Of a DNA stretch of 27,160 nucleotides, positions 2,729 through 16,114 are shown one piece after another. This DNA comes from a virus. The position numbers were made by a program, and so were the translations under genes. Where the stretch lies: IMG/VR virus record IMGVR_UViG_3300025881_000068, positions 1 through 27,160 of that record. One strand, written 5' to 3'. Within the stretch, counting starts at the first letter, position 1; each line of letters opens with the position of its first letter. The notes under the pieces were generated by a model. That model was given only the letters and a program-made list of their open reading frames with translations. It was not told the origin of the DNA and made no database searches.

Positions 2729-3463
2729 TTATTCCGCGTAGTATTCAACCAGTTGGTCGATCACGAGCTGTGCATCGTTTTCGATGAAGGTCTCGTCATC
2801 TTCGAAGAGACCAAAGGGAGAGCGTATCCGATCTCCCACTGTGGCTCGCGTAGTACGGGTCTGGAACACATGCTTGTAGCCCATGTCCCGGTCCCGTTCG
2901 GAGATCTTGAGGAGTTTGCCTTCGGCAGCATCCTTTTCGATCTCCTTGATCGTAGCCTTCTTGGCTCCGATCACGGTCGTGAAGTATGCCTCCAGACCGT
3001 TTTTCTTCAGCGCACCTTTGACAGGCACGGTGTAAGAAAACTTGCCAGTGTTCTCATCGAGTTGAGCGTCGATGTGACCCAGCATGATCGAGTAGCCGGG
3101 GAACTTGGCCACGTAGTCATACATGAGGGTCTTGAAGAACTGGCCGTATGCGCCCCACTGCTGCATGGTGTTGGCTGAACCAAGCACATGAACAGACTCG
3201 AACCGGTCCATCATGAAGCTGATGGTGTCGATCACGATGGTGTGGAAGCGTCCGGGGTTGTCGAGGACTTGCTGGTAGAGATCGAAGATCTCTTCAGGGT
3301 CATCCACTGTCACCCGTTTGAACTTGTTCTTGAAAGGTAGCGGTTTGCCACCTTCACAGTTGATGTAGAGAACACCCTCCTGACCACGCATGTTCCGAAG
3401 ACAGGCAGATTTACCTGCCCCGGACTCACCCGCGATGAGGATGGCTTTTGGACTTTCAGACAT
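2729..3463 (-). CDS. Sak4-like RecA-fold ATPase (AAA_24 type)
   Basis: The protein has 244 aa, with an ATG 7 nt after AAGGAG. A Walker A motif GESGAGKS lies at residues 12-19 and a Walker B strand in HTIVIDTISF near residue 78. The segment YSIMLGHID is consistent with a sensor-like strand. Size and architecture match the single-domain RecA-like phage ATPases of the Sak4/AAA_24 group, which act in SSB-dependent ssDNA annealing. That the next gene is the SSB supports this partnership. The C-terminal part (GDRIRSPFGLFEDDETFIEND) is acidic. The gap to the SSB start is 49 nt. The ATPase fold is confident. The Sak4 annealing function is inferred from size and neighbours. Confidence 0.8.
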   Translation of the reverse strand: MSESPKAILIAGESGAGKSACLRNMRGQEGVLYINCEGGKPLPFKNKFKRVTVDDPEEIFDLYQQVLDNPGRFHTIVIDTISFMMDRFESVHVLGSANTMQQWGAYGQFFKTLMYDYVAKFPGYSIMLGHIDAQLDENTGKFSYTVPVKGALKKNGLEAYFTTVIGAKKATIKEIEKDAAEGKLLKISERDRDMGYKHVFQTRTTRATVGDRIRSPFGLFEDDETFIENDAQLVIDQLVEYYAE

Positions 3464-3480
3464 AACGTCTCCTTCGTTGT

Positions 3481-3555
3481 TGGTTCCCCCAGAGGGACTC
3501 GAACCCTCATTCCCTGTTTAGGAAACAGGTTTCTATCCTGTTGAATTATGGAGGT
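3481..3555 (-). tRNA. tRNA-Arg, anticodon CCT (codon AGG)
   Basis: The anticodon arm CCTGT-TTCCTAA-ACAGG gives anticodon CCT. The T arm is GAGGG-TTCGAGT-CCCTC and the 3' end carries an encoded CCA. The acceptor pairs ACCTCCA with TGGGGGA, with an A:A mismatch at 1:72 and a U:G at position 4. The D stem has only three good pairs (TTC/GAA), and one connector base before the anticodon arm is missing, giving 75 nt in total. These oddities suggest an atypical or partly degraded tRNA, but all other landmarks are intact. It lies inside the operon between the primase-helicase and Sak4-like genes and must be cut out of the mRNA. Its codon AGG is the natural target of supplementation. Confidence 0.85.
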
Positions 3556-3557
3556 CC

Positions 3558-3721
3558 ATTGACTGAGAGATCTGCTTCCGGAATCGAACCGACACATCCT
3601 TGGGTATCCAAGTTAGGACAGGGTGATTGTAATCTCTTATTGGACAAGGTGGCCTTATCACCATTTTCGTCCTCGCCCCGGCTAAATTCACCTCCGGGGT
3701 ACATCTGGTCTCTCAGTCAAT
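3558..3721 (-). ncRNA. structured RNA closed by a 13-bp helix, directly upstream of the tRNA
   Basis: A perfect 13-bp inverted repeat (ATTGACTGAGAGA at 3558-3570, TCTCTCAGTCAAT at 3709-3721) encloses about 138 nt containing further helices: CCCCGG/CCGGGG (3676-3699), GGAC..GGTG/CACC..GTCC (3642-3672), CTTGG/CCAAG (3599-3612) and, on the minus strand, GGTTCGATTCC (3580-3590), which matches the tRNA T-arm consensus. A near copy of the GGAC-GGTG strand at 3616-3627 can pair GGTGAT with ATCACC (3657-3662) instead, so two folds compete. It begins 4 nt after the primase-helicase stop and ends 2 nt before the tRNA. I found no acceptor pairing or 7-nt anticodon loop that would make it a tRNA, and no protein start with a ribosome-binding site. 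The family is unknown. Confidence 0.6.
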
Positions 3722-3725
3722 AGGG

Positions 3726-5924
3726 TTAGGGTGCCATCTTACTGGCCACCGATTTCAGGATTGTGGACTCGATCTCATCCTTCTTCAGAGGACTCTGTGA
3801 CTGCTCGTTGAGAGTGTTCACTTTGCCCTTGATGACATCGTAGGTTGCACCTGCGTCCACCAACATGAAGGCGAAGTCCCGGAGATTGTTGTTCCGGTTT
3901 CCCACTTCCATGTTGTTGAGGAACCACCGTTCAAGGTGATCCAAGCGTCCCAGATCAGCCACCTGTGCGGTGTACTCGCTGTTCTGTTTGGTCTTCGGGA
4001 TGAACGGTAGGACGTTCACCAGTGAAGTTCCTTTGTGGACAACGACTTGGCTGTCCTCGTGGGTCATCCACTTCTTGCTCCGCTGGTTCGCAGAGCCATC
4101 AGACTTGAAGGGCAGCCAGAGAAGGAAGCTGTCCATGAAGTCACGGTAGTCTGTCTTGTCCAGCTTCAGGTTGTAGTTCGCTGGCATGATCAGACGGAAC
4201 CGATGCTCCTCGTCTGTGTGACGCTTGGTTGTGGCCGTGATGAAGGTGTACTCTTTCATCAGCTCGTGAAGAGCTTCGAGACGAATACCGCGACTCGTGA
4301 TGTTGCCATCCTTGTCACGCTCATGGCCGTCAATGTCCACCACAAGGCAGTTGAAGCCTTCGATGACATTGTCCTCCGACCGGTGCTCCTTATCGAAGTG
4401 ATGGTTGCACCAGTGCATCCCCGGTGCAGTCAGCAGCTTGGGAAGGCTGTCGAATGGTTTCTGCATCGGAGAGTAGTCAGAAGCGAAGTGATCAGAGAAG
4501 CTGAAGCTGATCTTGTTCAGATCGGTCTCTTCAAGCGTTGAGCCAGTGAAGAAATCAACTCCGCTGATCACGTTCTTCTTGATGACAACGTGGTTGCCCA
4601 CGCCCCATGCCATTGCGAGATCCATTATTTCCCTCCGGGGTACGGAGGAGTTAGGATAATATGGCAGATCCTCAACGAGATCAGCATGGGTCAAGGTGAC
4701 GCCTGACGAAGCGATGTACTTCGCCAGACGGACGAAGTTCCTCTCCCGCTTGAGCAGGGTCTGGAACGATGCTCCACTCTCTTCAGCGACCTTGAATGCC
4801 TGACGCAGGTTCTTCTTGGTGATCTCGGGAGACTCATCCAAGAAGGCATAGATGCCTGCGAGCTTGAGGGCTTTGAAGTACCGGTGGCTGAGTTCAGCTT
4901 TCCGGATGACTTCGTGCTCAGGCAACGTGTTGGCCACCATTTCACAGTGGAGACGGTAGGAGATCATCTCGACCCCCACCTCTTTTGGCACGTCGATCTT
5001 CAGATTGTAGAAGCGCGTGTCAGCGAACTTGGCCAGTTTGTGCTTCCAGTTTAGGAGAGACTGTGACCGGTTCTTGGACACCAACCCGTTGTACACGTCC
5101 TCGGGATTGATGGTAGCGGAGAAGTTTTCAGGCTTCCCCATACCGAAGAAGCAGCGACGAGCGTATCCCGTCTCAAGGAAGGAGTAGAACTCCTCCTCGG
5201 TCTTGGATCCGTCGAAGAGCTTCGAGGTAGTTCCGAACATGAGCATGTTGGCAGGGGTGGCCCCGACCAGATCAATGCCCCGCTCGTTGTCGGCAGTGTT
5301 CTTCACCAGCTTGGTTTTGATCCGACCCAAGTCGTATAGCTCCAAGAGGATGTTGATCACCTCTGTGTTGCCTACGATATTGGAGCCAATCTCATCCATT
5401 TGGAAATTGATCGAACCTGCACGAGCGAGCAGCAGCTTGTAACGGAGCTGCTTCACTGCTGGTCCAGTGCCGGAGTCGAAGAGGAAGGGTGCGTGTCCTT
5501 GGCGCTTGAAATCAGCCTCCAAGAGTTTCTTCTCCTCGTCTTCGCTCCCCGACTTCTTTGCAGCAATGTCCACTGCGAGATCGTAGATCGAACTCTCAGC
5601 GATGGCTGGGAAGACGGACCCCGTGAAGAGCTGCCGGAAGTCAGAGATCACGTTTTCCATCAGAGACACGGAGTGACCCTTGCCAAAGCCTGATGTGGCC
5701 AGAGCAATGGAATAGACGTTGATCGGGATCTTCCCCCGTTCAGGGCTGACGATGGTTGCCCGCATGGAACTCGGGATCAGACCCAAGAAGTAGGCAACCT
5801 CGGCTTGGAAGAAGTCACGGTTGACGTTTCCTGTACGGTGGCACAGCAGATCAACCAACTCCGACATGGCCGGGTGATGAGGTTCGTTCTCGATCACACT
5901 GAGGTCATAGAGTGGTTTTGACAC
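3726..5924 (-). CDS. primase-helicase fusion, N4 gp43-like (ATPase + AEP primase)
   Basis: The protein has 732 aa and starts with GTG behind AAGGAG (8 nt), which overlaps the stop region of the upstream nuclease gene. The N-terminal half is a P-loop ATPase with Walker A SGFGKGHS (78-85) followed by FQMDEIGS, in the style of the DUF3987/DnaB-like helicases of phages. From about residue 500 comes an archaeo-eukaryotic-type primase domain: VVDIDGHERDKDG (acidic pair D530, D532), the basic/His segment KRHTDEEHRFRL (~567-577) and WMTHEDSQV. The C-terminal ~70 residues (GNRNNNLRDFAFMLVDAGAT) resemble the helical PriCT module. It should unwind duplex DNA and make primers for the split DNA polymerase. 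The domain calls are by motif. N4 gp43 is the closest match I recall. Confidence 0.75.
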   Translation of the reverse strand: MSKPLYDLSVIENEPHHPAMSELVDLLCHRTGNVNRDFFQAEVAYFLGLIPSSMRATIVSPERGKIPINVYSIALATSGFGKGHSVSLMENVISDFRQLFTGSVFPAIAESSIYDLAVDIAAKKSGSEDEEKKLLEADFKRQGHAPFLFDSGTGPAVKQLRYKLLLARAGSINFQMDEIGSNIVGNTEVINILLELYDLGRIKTKLVKNTADNERGIDLVGATPANMLMFGTTSKLFDGSKTEEEFYSFLETGYARRCFFGMGKPENFSATINPEDVYNGLVSKNRSQSLLNWKHKLAKFADTRFYNLKIDVPKEVGVEMISYRLHCEMVANTLPEHEVIRKAELSHRYFKALKLAGIYAFLDESPEITKKNLRQAFKVAEESGASFQTLLKRERNFVRLAKYIASSGVTLTHADLVEDLPYYPNSSVPRREIMDLAMAWGVGNHVVIKKNVISGVDFFTGSTLEETDLNKISFSFSDHFASDYSPMQKPFDSLPKLLTAPGMHWCNHHFDKEHRSEDNVIEGFNCLVVDIDGHERDKDGNITSRGIRLEALHELMKEYTFITATTKRHTDEEHRFRLIMPANYNLKLDKTDYRDFMDSFLLWLPFKSDGSANQRSKKWMTHEDSQVVVHKGTSLVNVLPFIPKTKQNSEYTAQVADLGRLDHLERWFLNNMEVGNRNNNLRDFAFMLVDAGATYDVIKGKVNTLNEQSQSPLKKDEIESTILKSVASKMAP

Positions 5925-7284: not shown

Positions 7285-7627
7285 TTCCGAGGATCCTTTC
7301 ATTGTTATGGTTCACATGGCTCTTCCATTCGACACGTTTCACAGTGTTCAACTTTCTCAGAGCTGCATGATCCAGAACCACGAAGACAGGTGGACCACAT
7401 AGAACTTGGTCCGGTCTATCCCCGGTGGATCTGAATTTCACTCTGGCTTTATCGTAGAAAATCATACGGTTAGGCCAAGAGAATGAGTTGTGCCGATACA
7501 TCGTCAGCATCATCTCGATCATGTATTCACAGTGTCGAAAATCATGACACATATAGATGCAGTCACGACCTTTCTTGATGTGGTCTTGGAACATGTCGTG
7601 AAGCTGCCTAGACGACTGAAATCTCAT
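7274..7627 (-). CDS. hypothetical protein, 117 aa
   Basis: No family recognised. The ATG overlaps the stop of the polymerase C-terminal gene in an ATGA junction. The sequence is His/Met/Cys-rich at the N-terminus (DCIYMCHDFRHCEYMIEMM) and basic, with a hydrophobic strand GPPVFVVLDHAAL near residues 78-90 followed by a basic tail. The FVVLDHA strand resembles a Walker B, but there is no P-loop, so no ATPase call is made. The tight overlap on both sides supports expression with the replication genes. Confidence 0.7.
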   Translation of the reverse strand: MRFQSSRQLHDMFQDHIKKGRDCIYMCHDFRHCEYMIEMMLTMYRHNSFSWPNRMIFYDKARVKFRSTGDRPDQVLCGPPVFVVLDHAALRKLNTVKRVEWKSHVNHNNERILGNVS

Positions 7628-8370
7628 GCTGCCAGTTTCTCCAGGTGTTTGGTGATCTCTGCTTTGACATCACCGATGGTTGAGTCTTTCGGAATGGTCA
7701 TCTCTTCCTTCCAGTTTGGATAGAAGATCGACAGTTCCCCAGACATTTTGATGTGCTCATTCTGGATGGCAGGATCCTCTTGCCAGCTCACAGCTTTCAC
7801 CATGTGCTTGTTGGTATAGAGGACAGTTTCCATATCATCCCGGATGAGCATGTAGTTTGCGTCATGGATCTGAGCACAAGGTTTGATGTCCAAACGATGT
7901 GGTCCCTTTCGGACAGTCTGCATGAACTCAGAACCAGCACGACTATTCAACATGCAGTAGGATTGACCGAGAGCATTACCTGCTGTCCGGCCCTCTGCTG
8001 CTGCCTCATACGGTGTCTTACTGGTTCCCAAGACAACCTGCTTGAGCAGGGGAGTTCGCAATCTCAGGCCAAATGCGAGGGTGACGTAGCCATCCTTACA
8101 GGCTTGCTCCAGTTTATCTGCAACCCACTTGTCGGAGACGTGGTACAGATCGTGATAGCTGGCTTCGATTGACTTAGCCAACTGCGAGGTGAAGCCACAG
8201 TTCGCCATCAGAGTCACATACGTCCCCTGATAGGTGAGAGCGAAAGTCGGTGCCTTCGACTCTTGTCTCCAGTGGGGATAGAGCTTCTTGATGGAGTTGA
8301 CACGAGCGACATTGTGTTCGCTCGCGTCTACTGTGGAGACAGACTCGACTGTCCCAACCAGTTTAAGCAT
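7624..8370 (-). CDS. DNA polymerase family A, C-terminal piece (motifs B and C)
   Basis: The protein has 248 aa. The frame opens at 8484, but the first ~38 codons lie inside the Tad2-like gene and read nothing familiar. The ATG at 8370 overlaps the Tad2-like stop (ATGCTTAA), giving MLKLVGTVES. It carries polymerase motif B (RQESKAPTFALTYQG, R35, K39, Y47), the conserved EGRTAGNALGQS segment, and motif C with QIHDAN (H169, D170), ending in GELSIFYPNW as family A phage polymerases do. It lacks motif A and the exonuclease, which lie in the 8839-10923 gene. The two chains must associate to give an active enzyme. The pieces are in the same frame but separated by stops, so this is not a sequencing frameshift. 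Confidence 0.9.
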   Translation of the reverse strand: MLKLVGTVESVSTVDASEHNVARVNSIKKLYPHWRQESKAPTFALTYQGTYVTLMANCGFTSQLAKSIEASYHDLYHVSDKWVADKLEQACKDGYVTLAFGLRLRTPLLKQVVLGTSKTPYEAAAEGRTAGNALGQSYCMLNSRAGSEFMQTVRKGPHRLDIKPCAQIHDANYMLIRDDMETVLYTNKHMVKAVSWQEDPAIQNEHIKMSGELSIFYPNWKEEMTIPKDSTIGDVKAEITKHLEKLAA

Positions 8371-8830
8371 CCGGGACCAGAACCCAGTCCAGAGCCAGCA
8401 TGTCAGACTGTGAGCAGAGCCAAGGAACGATTGTCCCATCGGCTGTGAACATGTCCACATGAGGTTGATAGTTGAACTTGGCACCTTCGCCGAGGATCGA
8501 GAGCAGAGGCTCCCGATTGACAGTCAGATTGTGCGAACCAGCAACCAAGAACAGGAACATGTTTTTCCCGTTCCAGCCATACCGTGCCACACGTTTACCA
8601 GCCTTCAGATGTTCGATGGCTGTACCAAATCCGAACATACCGTCAGAGGTGTAGGTGGCTTCGAAGACATCAGCAGGGGACCAGCTTTGATAGCCGTCTG
8701 CATAGATGACCAGATAGCCCTCACGAGCTGGGTCTTCATCTTCTGGGATCGTCCATCCCCGGTGGGTGTTGTAGTCACCCAGGTTCATCTTGGTCGCTGT
8801 CAGCGACTTGGTTCCAACGTATTGCTTCAT
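8363..8830 (-). CDS. Tad2-like anti-Thoeris protein (DUF2829) with N-terminal extension
   Basis: The protein has 155 aa from the ATG at 8830 (MKQYVGTK, the usual start of this family). A GTG four codons upstream, overlapping the polymerase stop as GTGA, is an alternative. Residues ~1-60 form the frequently linked module (GWTIPEDED, GYLVIYADGYQSWSP). Residues ~66-155 are the DUF2829/Tad2 domain: FGTAIEHLKAGKRVARYGWN, MFLFLV, HVDMFTADGTIVPWLCSQ and DMLALDWVLV. Tad2 proteins sequester the ADP-ribose-derived cyclic signals made by Thoeris TIR proteins. The key Trp and Asp of the ligand-binding DMxxADGTIVPW region are present. The gene fills the break between the two polymerase pieces and overlaps the C-terminal piece by 8 nt. 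The sequestration function is inferred from the family. Confidence 0.88.
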   Translation of the reverse strand: MKQYVGTKSLTATKMNLGDYNTHRGWTIPEDEDPAREGYLVIYADGYQSWSPADVFEATYTSDGMFGFGTAIEHLKAGKRVARYGWNGKNMFLFLVAGSHNLTVNREPLLSILGEGAKFNYQPHVDMFTADGTIVPWLCSQSDMLALDWVLVPDA

Positions 8831-8838
8831 GGATTTAC

Positions 8839-10923
8839 TCACTTGTTGAGTTGGGCAAACAGCTCATGTCCGAGCAGCTTTTGACCCTCATATTCTATCT
8901 CCTCATCACTGTGGAAATAGATCTCTTTCCCATCGACGACTGCCTTGTAGGGGGTAGCCCCTTCTGGAAGCAGTTCAATGTCTGGCATGTGCTCTTTGAA
9001 ATAAGCCAATGCACGAAGACAGTGTCCGTCGAACCCATCAGAATACACCTTGATCTTCTCTGGATCTTTGGTGGTCACTGCTGAGATCTTGTCCTCCAAC
9101 GAGTCGAAGTCCAAGCCCACAAACAGCCATCCGGGGGGTGCTTCAAAGCACTCCTTGATGAGCTTGGCAAGCCTTTGTTTGACGGGTGTCGAACCAGCAG
9201 AAGGGATGTTCTGTAGGTTGGGGTTGTTGCTGGAAAGTCTCCCAGATGCTGTGCCACCCAGTCGGAAGTTTCCGAACAGGTAATGCCATCCATCGTTGCC
9301 CTTCTGAGCTTTCAAGAATGCTGGAAGGAACGTCGAGAGGATGATCGCACTGGCTTTGTACTCGATCAGGATCTCCAAGAACCGAATCACTTCGGGATCC
9401 TTGGTGTGGTTGATGAGCTTCTCCAGTGTGTCAGCACCTGTGGCAGGTTGCTTGGAGTCTGTGTAATCCAGCACAGGCAAACCAAGGAAGTTCTCGTCAT
9501 AGAGAAAGCGTTGGAGCTGCTGTGAGGATCCGGGGTTGAACTCGACGATGGTGTCTTTGGTCTTCCCGAGATCAGCCTTCGTGATCTGCTTGGTTTTCAG
9601 CTTGGCGTTCTTCTCGATGACCTTCTCATCTCGGAGCTGATCCATGAAGGACCAGACGATCTGGAGATTGTTCATCTTGGCCAAGTTGTCGCTGCTCTCC
9701 TTGTTGAGCTGCTTGTCCAGTGCGATGACCTTCTTCATGTTCAGAGGCATCCCGGTGAGCTGCATCTGAATGATGTCGATCACGGCTGGACGGAAGAGTG
9801 ACTGATACGGCACGTCTTGCTCGTCAGCGATCATGATCGGGTAGTTCTTCTTGAAGACATACCATGTGGAGAGGCCGTCGATCAGGTTGTATTCCAACAG
9901 CTTGGGCAACGGGATCTGGGTGATGTCATGGATGTCTTCCACGGCATAGTTCCCAGCGAACTCCTGAGCCTGAGCCTTGAGACCCAGCTCATTTCCAGCA
10001 CAGGAATTGGTGGCCAGATAGGAGATGATCTGTGTGCAGTCCCAGTCTCTCAGCATCACATCAAGACCTTCGAGGAGACCCTCTTGATCAAGGATGTGAT
10101 CCATAAACAGTTGATAAACAAGGACATACACGTCGTAGCAGATGTTGTGATAGATCATCTTCCGCTTGAAGTTACGGAAGAAAACCTGAAGAGCAGCTCG
10201 AACAGCTTTGTTCTTGAACTGCACTCCGTGAGCACCTTCAGCAGCACTCCCCTTGGCAACGACGTAGTCAACAGGGAAGGCAATGCCTTCGTGCTCATTC
10301 CAGCAGAAAGTGATCGTCCCGATCTCTGCATCGTAGTGCTTCAAGGAGAAGCCTTCGATGTCACAGGTCAGGTCACAGTCCATTTTCAGCAGCTTGTCGA
10401 GCCACTGTGCGATGTCTGTGTCTGTCATGGGATAGTCAGCGAACTTGATGATGTTCTGGCCAGTGACCGTCACATCTCCCTTGGCCCACCGTTTGGTAGA
10501 CTCCAGAGCCATCCCGATCTTCTTCTTCATGTTGTCCGGGTCATAGAAGACCCGTGCATAGTTGGGACAGTAGGTGATCGAGAAGTCTGGATCGTAATCG
10601 GAGATGAAGAAATCCCCGATGGTCGCATCTGTCTTGGCTTTCTTCGAGAGGATCTTGAAGTAGTCAGGCTGTGTCACGATTAGCATCTTGATGCCTGCTG
10701 CCTTGAGGTTGGGCAACAGGTCATCAAGATACTCTTTCATGTCAGAGGCTGAGTTCTTCTTCTTGGTTCCATCCATGAAGAGATCAGCAACCATGACGCT
10801 CTCACCCAGAGCAAGCAGGTGAGGTTGGTAGTAATGCTTCTGCACCTCCGCTGTCTGGATGCGTGGAACCAGGATACAAATCCGAGGATCCTTTGCAGAG
10901 TTGCCGATGACTTCATACTTCAT
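8839..10923 (-). CDS. DNA polymerase family A, N-terminal piece (exonuclease and motif A)
   Basis: The protein has 694 aa, with an ATG behind AGGAGA. The 3'-5' exonuclease motifs are present: ExoI CDIEGF (D188, E190), ExoII YHNICYDV, and ExoIII YNLIDGL. Thumb/palm sequence follows (FNPGSSQQLQ, GGTASGRLSSNNPNLQNIPS) and then motif A VGLDFDSLED (catalytic Asp at about 605). The chain stops 90 residues later, after DGHCLRALAYF and IEYEGQKLLGHEL, before motifs B and C. The first ~165 residues are a non-catalytic domain I do not recognise. It overlaps no polymerase sequence in the downstream piece, so the pair is complementary. It starts 2 nt downstream of the stop of the 57-aa gene. Confidence 0.92.
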   Translation of the reverse strand: MKYEVIGNSAKDPRICILVPRIQTAEVQKHYYQPHLLALGESVMVADLFMDGTKKKNSASDMKEYLDDLLPNLKAAGIKMLIVTQPDYFKILSKKAKTDATIGDFFISDYDPDFSITYCPNYARVFYDPDNMKKKIGMALESTKRWAKGDVTVTGQNIIKFADYPMTDTDIAQWLDKLLKMDCDLTCDIEGFSLKHYDAEIGTITFCWNEHEGIAFPVDYVVAKGSAAEGAHGVQFKNKAVRAALQVFFRNFKRKMIYHNICYDVYVLVYQLFMDHILDQEGLLEGLDVMLRDWDCTQIISYLATNSCAGNELGLKAQAQEFAGNYAVEDIHDITQIPLPKLLEYNLIDGLSTWYVFKKNYPIMIADEQDVPYQSLFRPAVIDIIQMQLTGMPLNMKKVIALDKQLNKESSDNLAKMNNLQIVWSFMDQLRDEKVIEKNAKLKTKQITKADLGKTKDTIVEFNPGSSQQLQRFLYDENFLGLPVLDYTDSKQPATGADTLEKLINHTKDPEVIRFLEILIEYKASAIILSTFLPAFLKAQKGNDGWHYLFGNFRLGGTASGRLSSNNPNLQNIPSAGSTPVKQRLAKLIKECFEAPPGWLFVGLDFDSLEDKISAVTTKDPEKIKVYSDGFDGHCLRALAYFKEHMPDIELLPEGATPYKAVVDGKEIYFHSDEEIEYEGQKLLGHELFAQLNK

Positions 10924-14984: not shown

Positions 14985-15395
14985 TCAGAACGTCCCCCAG
15001 AATTTGGCGTCCCTTGGGAGGAAGGGTTGCCAGACTGTGTCGAAGAAGCAGTTGCTCTTTCGATGGGCGACGTACTCGAAGAGTCTCGCAATGTTGTCAT
15101 CACGAAACCCGGAGAGACCAGTCCCAACTCTGGTGACTTGGAACTGGAGTTCATTCCGCTCGTCGTATGCGAACTTCATGAATTTCTGGACGTGTGTATG
15201 CACGTCGTCAAAGGGCATGAAGCTGATGTTCAGCCCCTTGGTAGGGAGAGCATAGGATTGGCCTGTGAGGCCCTCTCCTACGCCCAGCTCGGCACCTTTG
15301 TGTTCTCGTGCATAACGAGCTGCACCAGCACCATGGATGCCGCTGAGGTTTGAACCAAAGACGAAGATCATCTTGGATGGATCATGCAGCTCCAT
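14985..15395 (-). CDS. phage macro-like protein (A1S_2505-type)
   Basis: The protein has 136 aa. The ATG at 15395 shares its A with the stop of the cupin gene (TGATG), so translation is coupled. There is no strong ribosome-binding site. The sequence MIFVFGSNLSGIHGAGAARY, then GEGLTGQSYALPTKG, VTRVGTGLSGFRDD and IARLFEYV is the pattern of a widespread phage family that I remember as A1S_2505 and that looks macro-domain-like (Gly-rich loops following a FVFGSN strand). Macro domains bind or remove ADP-ribose. Whether this one does is inference. It is the last gene before a terminator. Together with the Tad2-like gene, it is a second candidate for handling ADP-ribose-derived signals. Confidence 0.7.
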   Translation of the reverse strand: MELHDPSKMIFVFGSNLSGIHGAGAARYAREHKGAELGVGEGLTGQSYALPTKGLNISFMPFDDVHTHVQKFMKFAYDERNELQFQVTRVGTGLSGFRDDNIARLFEYVAHRKSNCFFDTVWQPFLPRDAKFWGTF

Positions 15396-16114
15396 CAGAA
15401 TACCAGCGACAGGATGCCTGCCCAGAAGACAGCACACAGGATGACTCCGAGGATCAGGATCCTCTTCTTGGTGAGGATGTCATCCGGATCAGGAGTGCTC
15501 TTGTAGGAGCTGCTCTGCACGCAGTTGAGACAGTAGCCGTCGTAGTTGTGGAGCTGGATCTCACCCCCACCACACTCACGGCAATGGAAGTGGTTGAAGA
15601 TCCCGTTCTCATCGACGATGCTGACTTCACCACAGCCACGACCCACGGTGCCTTTCTCTGCACCGACGAAGTCTTTCCAGTGACGCCAGCCCTGAGCACA
15701 GAGGAAGCCCCACTCACGGATCCGAGGACCGGTGATGAAGATTGTCGTCACTGGTTCATCCTGTGTGGACAGGGGCAGAGCCAGACGGTGAGCGAAGTTC
15801 GGTCCACGGTATATCCAGTCGCCAGCCTTGATCATACGTTTCCGAGGGTACGCCCCATTGGGGCTGAGGTAGTGCTCGATCATCTGACCACTGGTGCAGA
15901 GACTGAGCGTCCGCCATGGGTGATCGTGAAGAGCACGGTCATCATCATCGTGCAGGATTTTGTGCAGATAGATGTTGAACCACTTGTTCCGAGGGATTGC
16001 CCACCAGCGTAGCATGTAGGGGTCATCCGAAGGTCCGATCACGAAGTCGGGTTCACGACTCTCCATGATCTGTTGGGATTTTTTGGTAGCCCAACGTGTG
16101 AAGATACCAAACAT
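15395..16114 (-). CDS. cupin-fold protein with zinc ribbon and C-terminal membrane anchor
   Basis: The protein has 239 aa, with an ATG 7 nt after AAAGGA. A cupin metal site is seen as ALHDHPW (first His pair) plus NFAHRLAL, with strands TLSLCTSGQMIEHYL and TIFITGPRI between and after. Residues ~176-200 carry CRECGG...YCLNC, a four-Cys zinc ribbon. The last ~22 residues (RILILGVILCAVFWAGILSL) form a single transmembrane helix, with the cupin and ribbon on one side. The LHDHPW cupins are common unknowns in phages. The ribbon plus anchor is unusual. It could modify or bind a small molecule or metal at the membrane. No substrate can be named. Confidence 0.75.
   Translation of the reverse strand: MFGIFTRWATKKSQQIMESREPDFVIGPSDDPYMLRWWAIPRNKWFNIYLHKILHDDDDRALHDHPWRTLSLCTSGQMIEHYLSPNGAYPRKRMIKAGDWIYRGPNFAHRLALPLSTQDEPVTTIFITGPRIREWGFLCAQGWRHWKDFVGAEKGTVGRGCGEVSIVDENGIFNHFHCRECGGGEIQLHNYDGYCLNCVQSSSYKSTPDPDDILTKKRILILGVILCAVFWAGILSLVF

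Follow-up and report, generated by a model that had tools for sequence, protein, structure and literature searches.

A structured noncoding RNA from an N4-like phage and its relatives: a predicted uncatalogued family with covarying helices and a loop-loop contact

Introduction

Annotation of phage genomes covers proteins and tRNAs, and structured RNAs of the size considered here are missed, as illustrated by the unannotated copy in an isolated phage described below. The window analysed in this work, the whole 27,160-nt stretch of IMG/VR record IMGVR_UViG_3300025881_000068, is the 27-kb record of an uncultured N4-like phage encoding primase, Sak4, polymerase, helicase, RNR and rIIA/B homologues. 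Among deposited phages, the nearest Sak4 proteins to its own are those of Schitoviridae roseophages, with up to 55% identity. Between the primase gene and a tRNA lies a 164-nt segment closed by a long perfect helix, which raises the question of whether the segment is a functional RNA and, if so, from which strand it is made, how it folds, and whether it acts as a free molecule or on the genes beside it.

The element in the window

The segment is bounded by 13 perfect pairs, read directly from the sequence, in which ATTGACTGAGAGA (3558-3570) and TCTCTCAGTCAAT (3709-3721) form the closing helix. The primase ORF ends at 3726 on the minus strand, leaving 4 nt (3722-3725) between its stop codon and the element, and 2 nt (3556-3557) separate the element from tRNA-Arg(CCT), encoded on the same strand at 3481-3555. 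All of these coordinates match the first-pass annotation, made from the sequence alone, which had described a perfect 13-bp closing helix 4 nt past a stop codon and 2 nt before the tRNA. It had also pointed to a T-arm-like string and to duplicated strands; both exist, but their strands had been mixed. The T-arm-like GGTTCGATTCC belongs to the minus strand (3590-3580), and the duplicates GGACAGGGTGAT and GGACAAGGTG are plus-strand letters, with minus forms ATCACCCTGTCC and CACCTTGTCC, each able to pair with GGAC..GGTGAT in the window sequence. The minus strand, which the tRNA and both neighbouring genes share, folds with a minimum free energy of -59.0 kcal/mol (z = -3.67) that none of 200 shuffles equals; for the plus strand, z is -3.14 and one of 200 shuffles equals it. 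The features of the locus are as follows, with helices numbered P1 to P5, classes A to D and covariance models R1 to R3 defined in the next section.

3558-3721, minus strand: whole structured RNA of 164 nt, transcript running from 3721 to 3558; basis, the fold statistics above, covariation in relatives, and a match of the class A model R3 at 3561-3718, the window sequence (as L033) being part of R3 by construction
3709-3721, minus strand: 5' strand of P1, the closing helix; 13 perfect pairs, with two-sided change at 11 of 12 P1 pairs in class A and 10 of 11 in class B
3558-3570, minus strand: 3' strand of P1, the closing helix; same basis as the 5' strand
3676-3699, minus strand: P2 hairpin CCCCGG/CCGGGG; two-sided change at 3 of 6 pairs in class A, 95.2% of cells paired
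3642-3672, minus strand: P3 hairpin, outer helix GGAC/GUCC (judged in relatives by eye only) and inner helix GGUG/CACC (two-sided change at 4 of 4 pairs, 100% paired)
3652-3658, minus strand: apical loop of P3, AUAAGGC, whose last three bases GGC (3654-3652) are one side of the predicted loop-loop kiss and complement the P5 loop in 28 of 28 elements
3600-3611, minus strand: P4 hairpin UUGG/CCAA, class A only; seen by eye in the window and in L003, uncounted
3580-3599, minus strand: P5 hairpin GGA/UCC, with a 14-nt loop UGUGUCGGUUCGAU (3596-3583) holding the T-arm-like string; two-sided change at 2 of 3 stem pairs, loop near-invariant across the family
3591-3593, minus strand: GUC of the P5 loop, predicted partner of the P3-loop GGC through G3654-C3591, G3653-U3592 (wobble) and C3652-G3593; covaries across the family
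3481-3555, minus strand: tRNA-Arg (CCT), 2 nt downstream; ARAGORN, and Rfam RF00005 at 44.2 bits
3726-5924, minus strand: N4 gp43-like DNA primase, upstream neighbour; phrog_2135, E 0
2729-3463, minus strand: Sak4-like ssDNA annealing protein (N4 gp44-like), downstream neighbour; phrog_124, 9.4e-39

A further helix, P1b, enclosing P2 and P3, was seen by eye and in the minimum-energy fold of locus L294; it is weak in the window and, lying at alignment gaps, is uncounted.

Known RNA types do not account for the element. Rfam 15, searched over 3440-3760 with E up to 10, returned only the tRNA and its antisense look-alikes. At the element itself, ARAGORN and RF00005 gave only the neighbouring tRNA-Arg and neither ARAGORN nor Rfam found a tmRNA; with no cloverleaf, anticodon arm or tag frame recognised, a tRNA or tmRNA identity was rejected. 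Membership of a catalogued RNA family was likewise rejected, as Rfam 15 gives no match at the elements: at gathering level, 12 carrier loci returned tRNAs only, and the best E values at the elements, 2.0 (L299) and 4.2 (L294), are all far under the cut-offs. The proposal of a discrete structured RNA, distinct from tRNA, tmRNA and catalogued introns, is supported.

Three other features of the window were recorded. The tRNA-Arg(CCT) at 3481-3555 (minus) has an apparent A-A mismatch at the first acceptor pair, where L007 reads T (by eye). The family A DNA polymerase gene (7624-10923, minus) is split into two parts, ORF 8839-10923 and ORF 7624-8484, with Pfam matches that adjoin at profile position 199; the ORF between them (8363-8842) belongs to phrog_872, of unknown function, and Rfam finds no intron there. 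A cysteine dioxygenase-like protein is encoded at 15395-16114 (minus; phrog_4786, 1.1e-50) and is possibly the product of an auxiliary metabolic gene.

Relatives of the element and their classes

To define relatives at the same genomic place, we fetched 29 loci around the Sak4 gene with the Sak4 protein of the window. Six of them carry a related element, recognised by reading, motif filter and models (L002, L003, L012, L015, L018 and L023), and the Sak4 protein of L002 is 100% identical to that of the window. Model R1, run over the remaining Sak4 loci (L002 not included), found no additional element. The element comes and goes as a whole, since in L005 and L022 it is missing and the intergene is very short, and L006-L010 contain the tRNA alone.

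Carriers elsewhere were collected by sequence pattern. The P5-loop pattern gave 17 viral stretches and wider patterns gave more; the motif filter, applied to 420 records, passed 46 places, of which 27 were distinct. These, together with L023, recognised by eye, make up the 28 elements analysed below. A 29th, L122, came from model R3 with a match of 2.4e-13, although it was absent from the training set. The family therefore comprises at least 29 distinct elements, found on viral contigs and in one isolated phage, Sulfitobacter phage vB_SupP_AX, where the element lies in the primase-Sak4 intergene and the deposited record has no annotation at that place.

The elements fall into class A, which includes the window, class B, class C and two odd members termed D. 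All classes follow a common plan: the closing helix P1, a P3 hairpin with a 7-nt loop of the AYAAGGC type, and a P5 hairpin with the 14-nt loop UGU-SYC-GGUUMGAU. Covariance models built on the classes match across them, which supports a single family. R3 (class A) aligns over its full length to 16 of the 19 loci of classes B, C and D on which it was run, with E values from 2e-8 to 2e-3 (for instance L035, 2e-8; L294, 2.3e-8; L015, 2.3e-7; L040, 1.7e-5); it aligns only partially to L045 and L296 and gives no alignment on L023. R1 (class B) is full length on 5 of 6 class C loci (E 2e-5 to 2.5e-3) and also reaches L041 of class A; in the window it finds the P5 piece only (18.2 bits), class A being distant. 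R2 (class C) matches L294 at 2.6e-10 and L035 at 1.6e-7, reaching classes B and D. Because carriers were chosen by P5-loop letters, and many also by the P3 loop, conservation of the loop letters is partly imposed by the search; pairing of P1, the P3 stem and the P5 stem is not imposed by it. About 18-21 bits of the model scores come from the loops and are partly circular, and the remainder comes from the whole length.

Two weak full-length R3 matches, L092:531-697 and L137:180-346 (21.8 bits and E 0.0019 each), are possible further members. They come from a run of R3 over 100 loci of L048-L153 (L062 and L122 were used elsewhere and the last four left out), in which the other loci gave P5-like fragments. 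Comparison of eight elements with phage records by blastn returned vB_SupP_AX as the sole real match, the others being tRNAs or chance. Cellular sequence was also covered: a pattern scan of genome contigs gave at least 120 stretches, none of which, among the matches listed, passed the hairpin filter, and R3 matched none of 100 of these stretches. Pattern searches of whole genomes gave 0 of 385, 0 of 369 and 1 of 396 genomes, the lone match being without the kiss (GAC against TGC); the sequence covered is too small for a claim that cells lack the family or that viruses are enriched in it. Open-access papers yielded no description of such an RNA family. By these comparisons, the window element is a predicted member of an uncatalogued family of phage structured noncoding RNAs, which are themselves a known kind.

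Covariation and selection on pairing

The first-pass annotation had named the lack of compensatory changes in relatives among the results that would refute its reading; such changes are clearly present in classes A and B. In class A (7 sequences, the window being L033), 98.9% of alignment cells are paired and 20 of 28 pairs show two-sided change in at least one sequence; none of 500 shuffles is as good on any measure, and slid controls reach 33-49% paired. The corresponding values for class B (12 sequences) are 97.6% of cells and 19 of 26 pairs, with slid controls at 36-47%. P1 differs in sequence almost everywhere, yet 100% of its cells are paired. Its length is weak evidence when taken alone: a helix of at least 9 is found in 24 of 28 elements versus 111 of 560 shuffled-flank trials. 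As to the alignments, that of class B (A3) excludes L300, a near copy of L295; the class D loci L291 and L292 are in no counted alignment; row L032 of alignment A4 (the contig of L018) is one position out of register in P2; and the P1 ends of L036, L062, L292 and L298 were set by eye.

Over both alignments, G-U cells outnumber A-C cells by 31 to 1, which points to an RNA rather than DNA, with the minus strand as transcript, and rules out a DNA hairpin or palindrome. The element is an RNA under selection. What the comparisons show to be kept is a predicted minus-strand molecule with P1, P3, P5 and the kiss between its loops.

A predicted contact between the P3 and P5 loops

In all 28 elements, the three bases that end the P3 loop complement bases 4-6 of the P5 loop, and the pairings covary, occurring in five kinds: GGC/GUC, GGC/GCC, GAC/GUC, GGG/CCC and CGG/CCG. 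No permutation out of 200,000 was as good, with related elements counted as independent. L122, which stands outside the 28, has the P3 loop ACAAGAC against GUC, that is, GAC/GUC. Class A, including the window, keeps an invariant GGC/GUC, and the pairing varies in class B; because the class A kiss does not vary, the case for it in the window is carried by the family. These covarying combinations show a three-base-pair interaction, predicted from sequence, between the apical loops of P3 and P5, next to the T-loop-like UUMGA.

The P5 loop contains UUMGA, which is the T-loop sequence, and a T-loop may accordingly be suggested for this position; with the kiss beside it, the RNA probably adopts a compact core resembling the elbow of a tRNA. 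Neither Rfam nor ARAGORN recognises the P5 string as a tRNA T-arm, and the element has no anticodon arm and no CCA.

Genomic neighbourhoods and release of the RNA

In N4-like phages, the element occupies the primase-Sak4 intergene. In other carriers it lies next to or near genes of diverse function: DNA polymerase (L301, L035, L291), a Gp2.5-like protein (L034), primosomal or replisome proteins (L295, L300), Erf and RecE (L299), RNR (L290), terminase (L046), an OmpA-like protein (L036), and a head gene on the opposite strand, to which the L040 copy is antisense. tRNA genes are recurrent company. L045 holds the element within a tRNA array and in L038 a tRNA-Met follows it. In L290 the element, of class B, occupies the gap within a permuted tmRNA gene: the CCA is followed at once by P1, and the 5' piece begins 4 nt past P1. 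In the window, L003, L038 (with a wobble-extended P1) and L290, 2-4 nt separate the end of P1 from the tRNA or tmRNA downstream. A search of 12 further carrier records at E 1e-3 found a tRNA in none of them. The company of tRNAs is frequent but not needed, and release by tRNA processing cannot be general, because none of these 12 records showed a tRNA.

The tmRNA of L290 (1619-2072), a permuted two-piece gene on a 98-kb viral contig, was recorded as a feature in its own right, as were two recurrent features of the Sak4 intergene. A motif of the approximate form GACCTGAGYA ... CTGTCG ... TTAAACTGCTC, with variants, occurs upstream of Sak4 in L004, L011, L015, L019, L020 and L023; it shares the intergene with the element in L015 and L023 and is possibly another structured RNA. 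A small ORF of about 50 residues, seen by eye, recurs between the tRNA, element or primase and Sak4 (L006-L010, L012, L017); it starts with GGTGATYC or similar and has a TATTGGTATCT or TACTGGTATCT stretch.

A free, trans-acting RNA is suggested by two facts, namely that no neighbour is constant and that one copy is antisense to its neighbour. The suggestion that tRNA processing could aid release of the element fits its placement in the window. The RNA is probably released as a discrete molecule, its 3' end being made by RNase P wherever a tRNA or tmRNA adjoins it 2-4 nt downstream, and would act in trans, not on the gene beside it. Leaving the target aside, we consider the combination of family, strand, fold and action in trans to be the likely account of these elements.

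What the RNA would act upon can be addressed only tentatively. Its elbow-like core might be bound by a host protein that handles tRNA, either a processing or modification enzyme or a defence nuclease that attacks tRNAs, and the RNA would then work as a tRNA mimic or decoy during infection; we hold this as one possible target, and a doubtful one. PMC13096335 discusses how phage tRNAs may serve as decoys or supplements where a defence attacks tRNAs. In its most extended form, which we regard as speculative and rather unlikely as a whole, the proposal is that many unrelated phages share a new class of viral RNA. The intramolecular kiss between an AYAA 7-nt loop and a T-loop-motif 14-nt loop would build an elbow look-alike in a molecule that is not itself a tRNA; tRNA maturation would excise this RNA, even from within a permuted tmRNA gene, and it would then work in trans, either opposing host tRNA-binding proteins or using them, one example being a decoy role towards defences that attack tRNAs. 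A mimic or decoy of this kind, if real, would join the phage answers to such defences.

Alternative explanations

The element could instead serve the 3' end of the primase mRNA, stopping exonucleases or guiding processing among primase, tRNA and Sak4, with no role as a free RNA. It lies 3-8 nt past the primase ORF in 7 of the 8 primase-Sak4 carriers scanned (259 nt in the eighth, L023), so that a 3'-UTR role is possible in those phages, and long helices, of which P1 is an example, are the kind of structure that blocks exonucleases. A bare hairpin would suffice for that purpose, however, and the near-invariant 14-nt loop and the covarying kiss would be left unexplained. Other copies sit within tRNA arrays, inside a tmRNA gap or on the strand opposite a head gene, and the relatives L005 and L022 manage without any element. 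We judge this explanation unlikely.

A main functional rival is a replication-linked RNA or origin element, such as a primer or structured transcript at a phage origin, to which we give only a small chance. In its favour, by raw count the annotated neighbours mostly belong to replication or recombination (primase, Sak4, DNA polymerase, Gp2.5, primosomal or replisome proteins, Erf and RecE); early genes, however, cluster in phages. Other elements adjoin head, terminase, OMP-like, tRNA or tmRNA genes, and the excess of G-U over A-C cells speaks for an RNA and against a DNA hairpin.

A bacterial Y RNA of the YrlA type, that is, a tRNA-mimicking scaffold tethering a Ro/Rsr protein to an exonuclease, has the same general plan of a long terminal stem and a tRNA-like core. 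One carrier contig, L045, has 15 ARAGORN tRNAs and encodes a TROVE (Ro/Rsr) protein (738-1745, minus) with a sub-cut-off YrlA-like match beside it (2009-2078, minus). That match is apart from the element, which lies at about 3285-3435. With E up to 10, the YrlA model RF02553 matches no element in 16 of 16 records and none in three stretches; its sub-cut-off matches elsewhere in 6 of the 16 compare with weak matches in 13 of 14 control genomes, none over the cut-off. The TROVE gene (PF05731) is absent from 15 of the 16 records, most of which are fragments; the window, a 27-kb fragment whose partner could lie elsewhere, is among the 15. YrlA membership was rejected on the RF02553 and TROVE results, and the Y RNA explanation is improbable.

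A cis-regulatory switch between the local P3 hairpin and a distal strand copy, as the first-pass annotation had entertained, is highly improbable: GGUGAU of the window can pair either way and the minimum-energy fold takes the distal copy, but only 61.9% of class A cells keep the distal pairing, a level that 155 of 500 shuffles reach, versus 100% and covariation at 4 of 4 pairs for the local one, and no constant regulated gene stands beside or downstream of the elements, so that a riboswitch or cis switch was rejected, the alternative pairing not being conserved.

Comparison with known RNAs

The preferred account, a free RNA with an elbow-like core, has partial counterparts among known systems. 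PMC8394870 describes YrlA as a modular RNA in which a large terminal stem is joined to a domain resembling the D, T and acceptor arms of tRNA, so that a long terminal stem and a tRNA-like core are common to both; one difference is that the predicted P3-P5 kiss would use positions other than those of a tRNA elbow. Y RNAs have also been put forward, in PMC12282133, as one explanation of abundant RNAs in a Listeria phage.

The permuted two-piece tmRNA is related by position, as the L290 element fills the gap of such a gene, but the element itself has neither a tag reading frame nor tRNA-like ends. GOLLD and ROOL are ornate, phage-linked structured RNAs, often near tRNAs, several hundred nucleotides long and represented by Rfam families; the present elements resemble them in being phage-linked and structured and in lying often near tRNAs, and differ in being shorter and in lacking any Rfam match.

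A similar setting is found in phage T4: its RNA C and RNA D, also called species 1 and 2 and measuring 139 and 119 nt, lie beside tRNA-Arg in the T4 tRNA cluster and are stable RNAs according to the database record. We know of no function for either. Homology was rejected, as none of the three models matches: R1, run unfiltered over the T4 cluster, gives a best E of 0.19, at a tRNA, and R2 and R3 give none. The likeness is one of kind and place, in that these are phage RNAs beside tRNA-Arg, and RNA C carries the T-arm-like GGGTTCGAATCCC. Strong covariation, occurrence in phages unrelated to one another and location in tRNA clusters and replication modules make the family a testable entry to the role of T4 RNA C and D and other small stable RNAs of phages.
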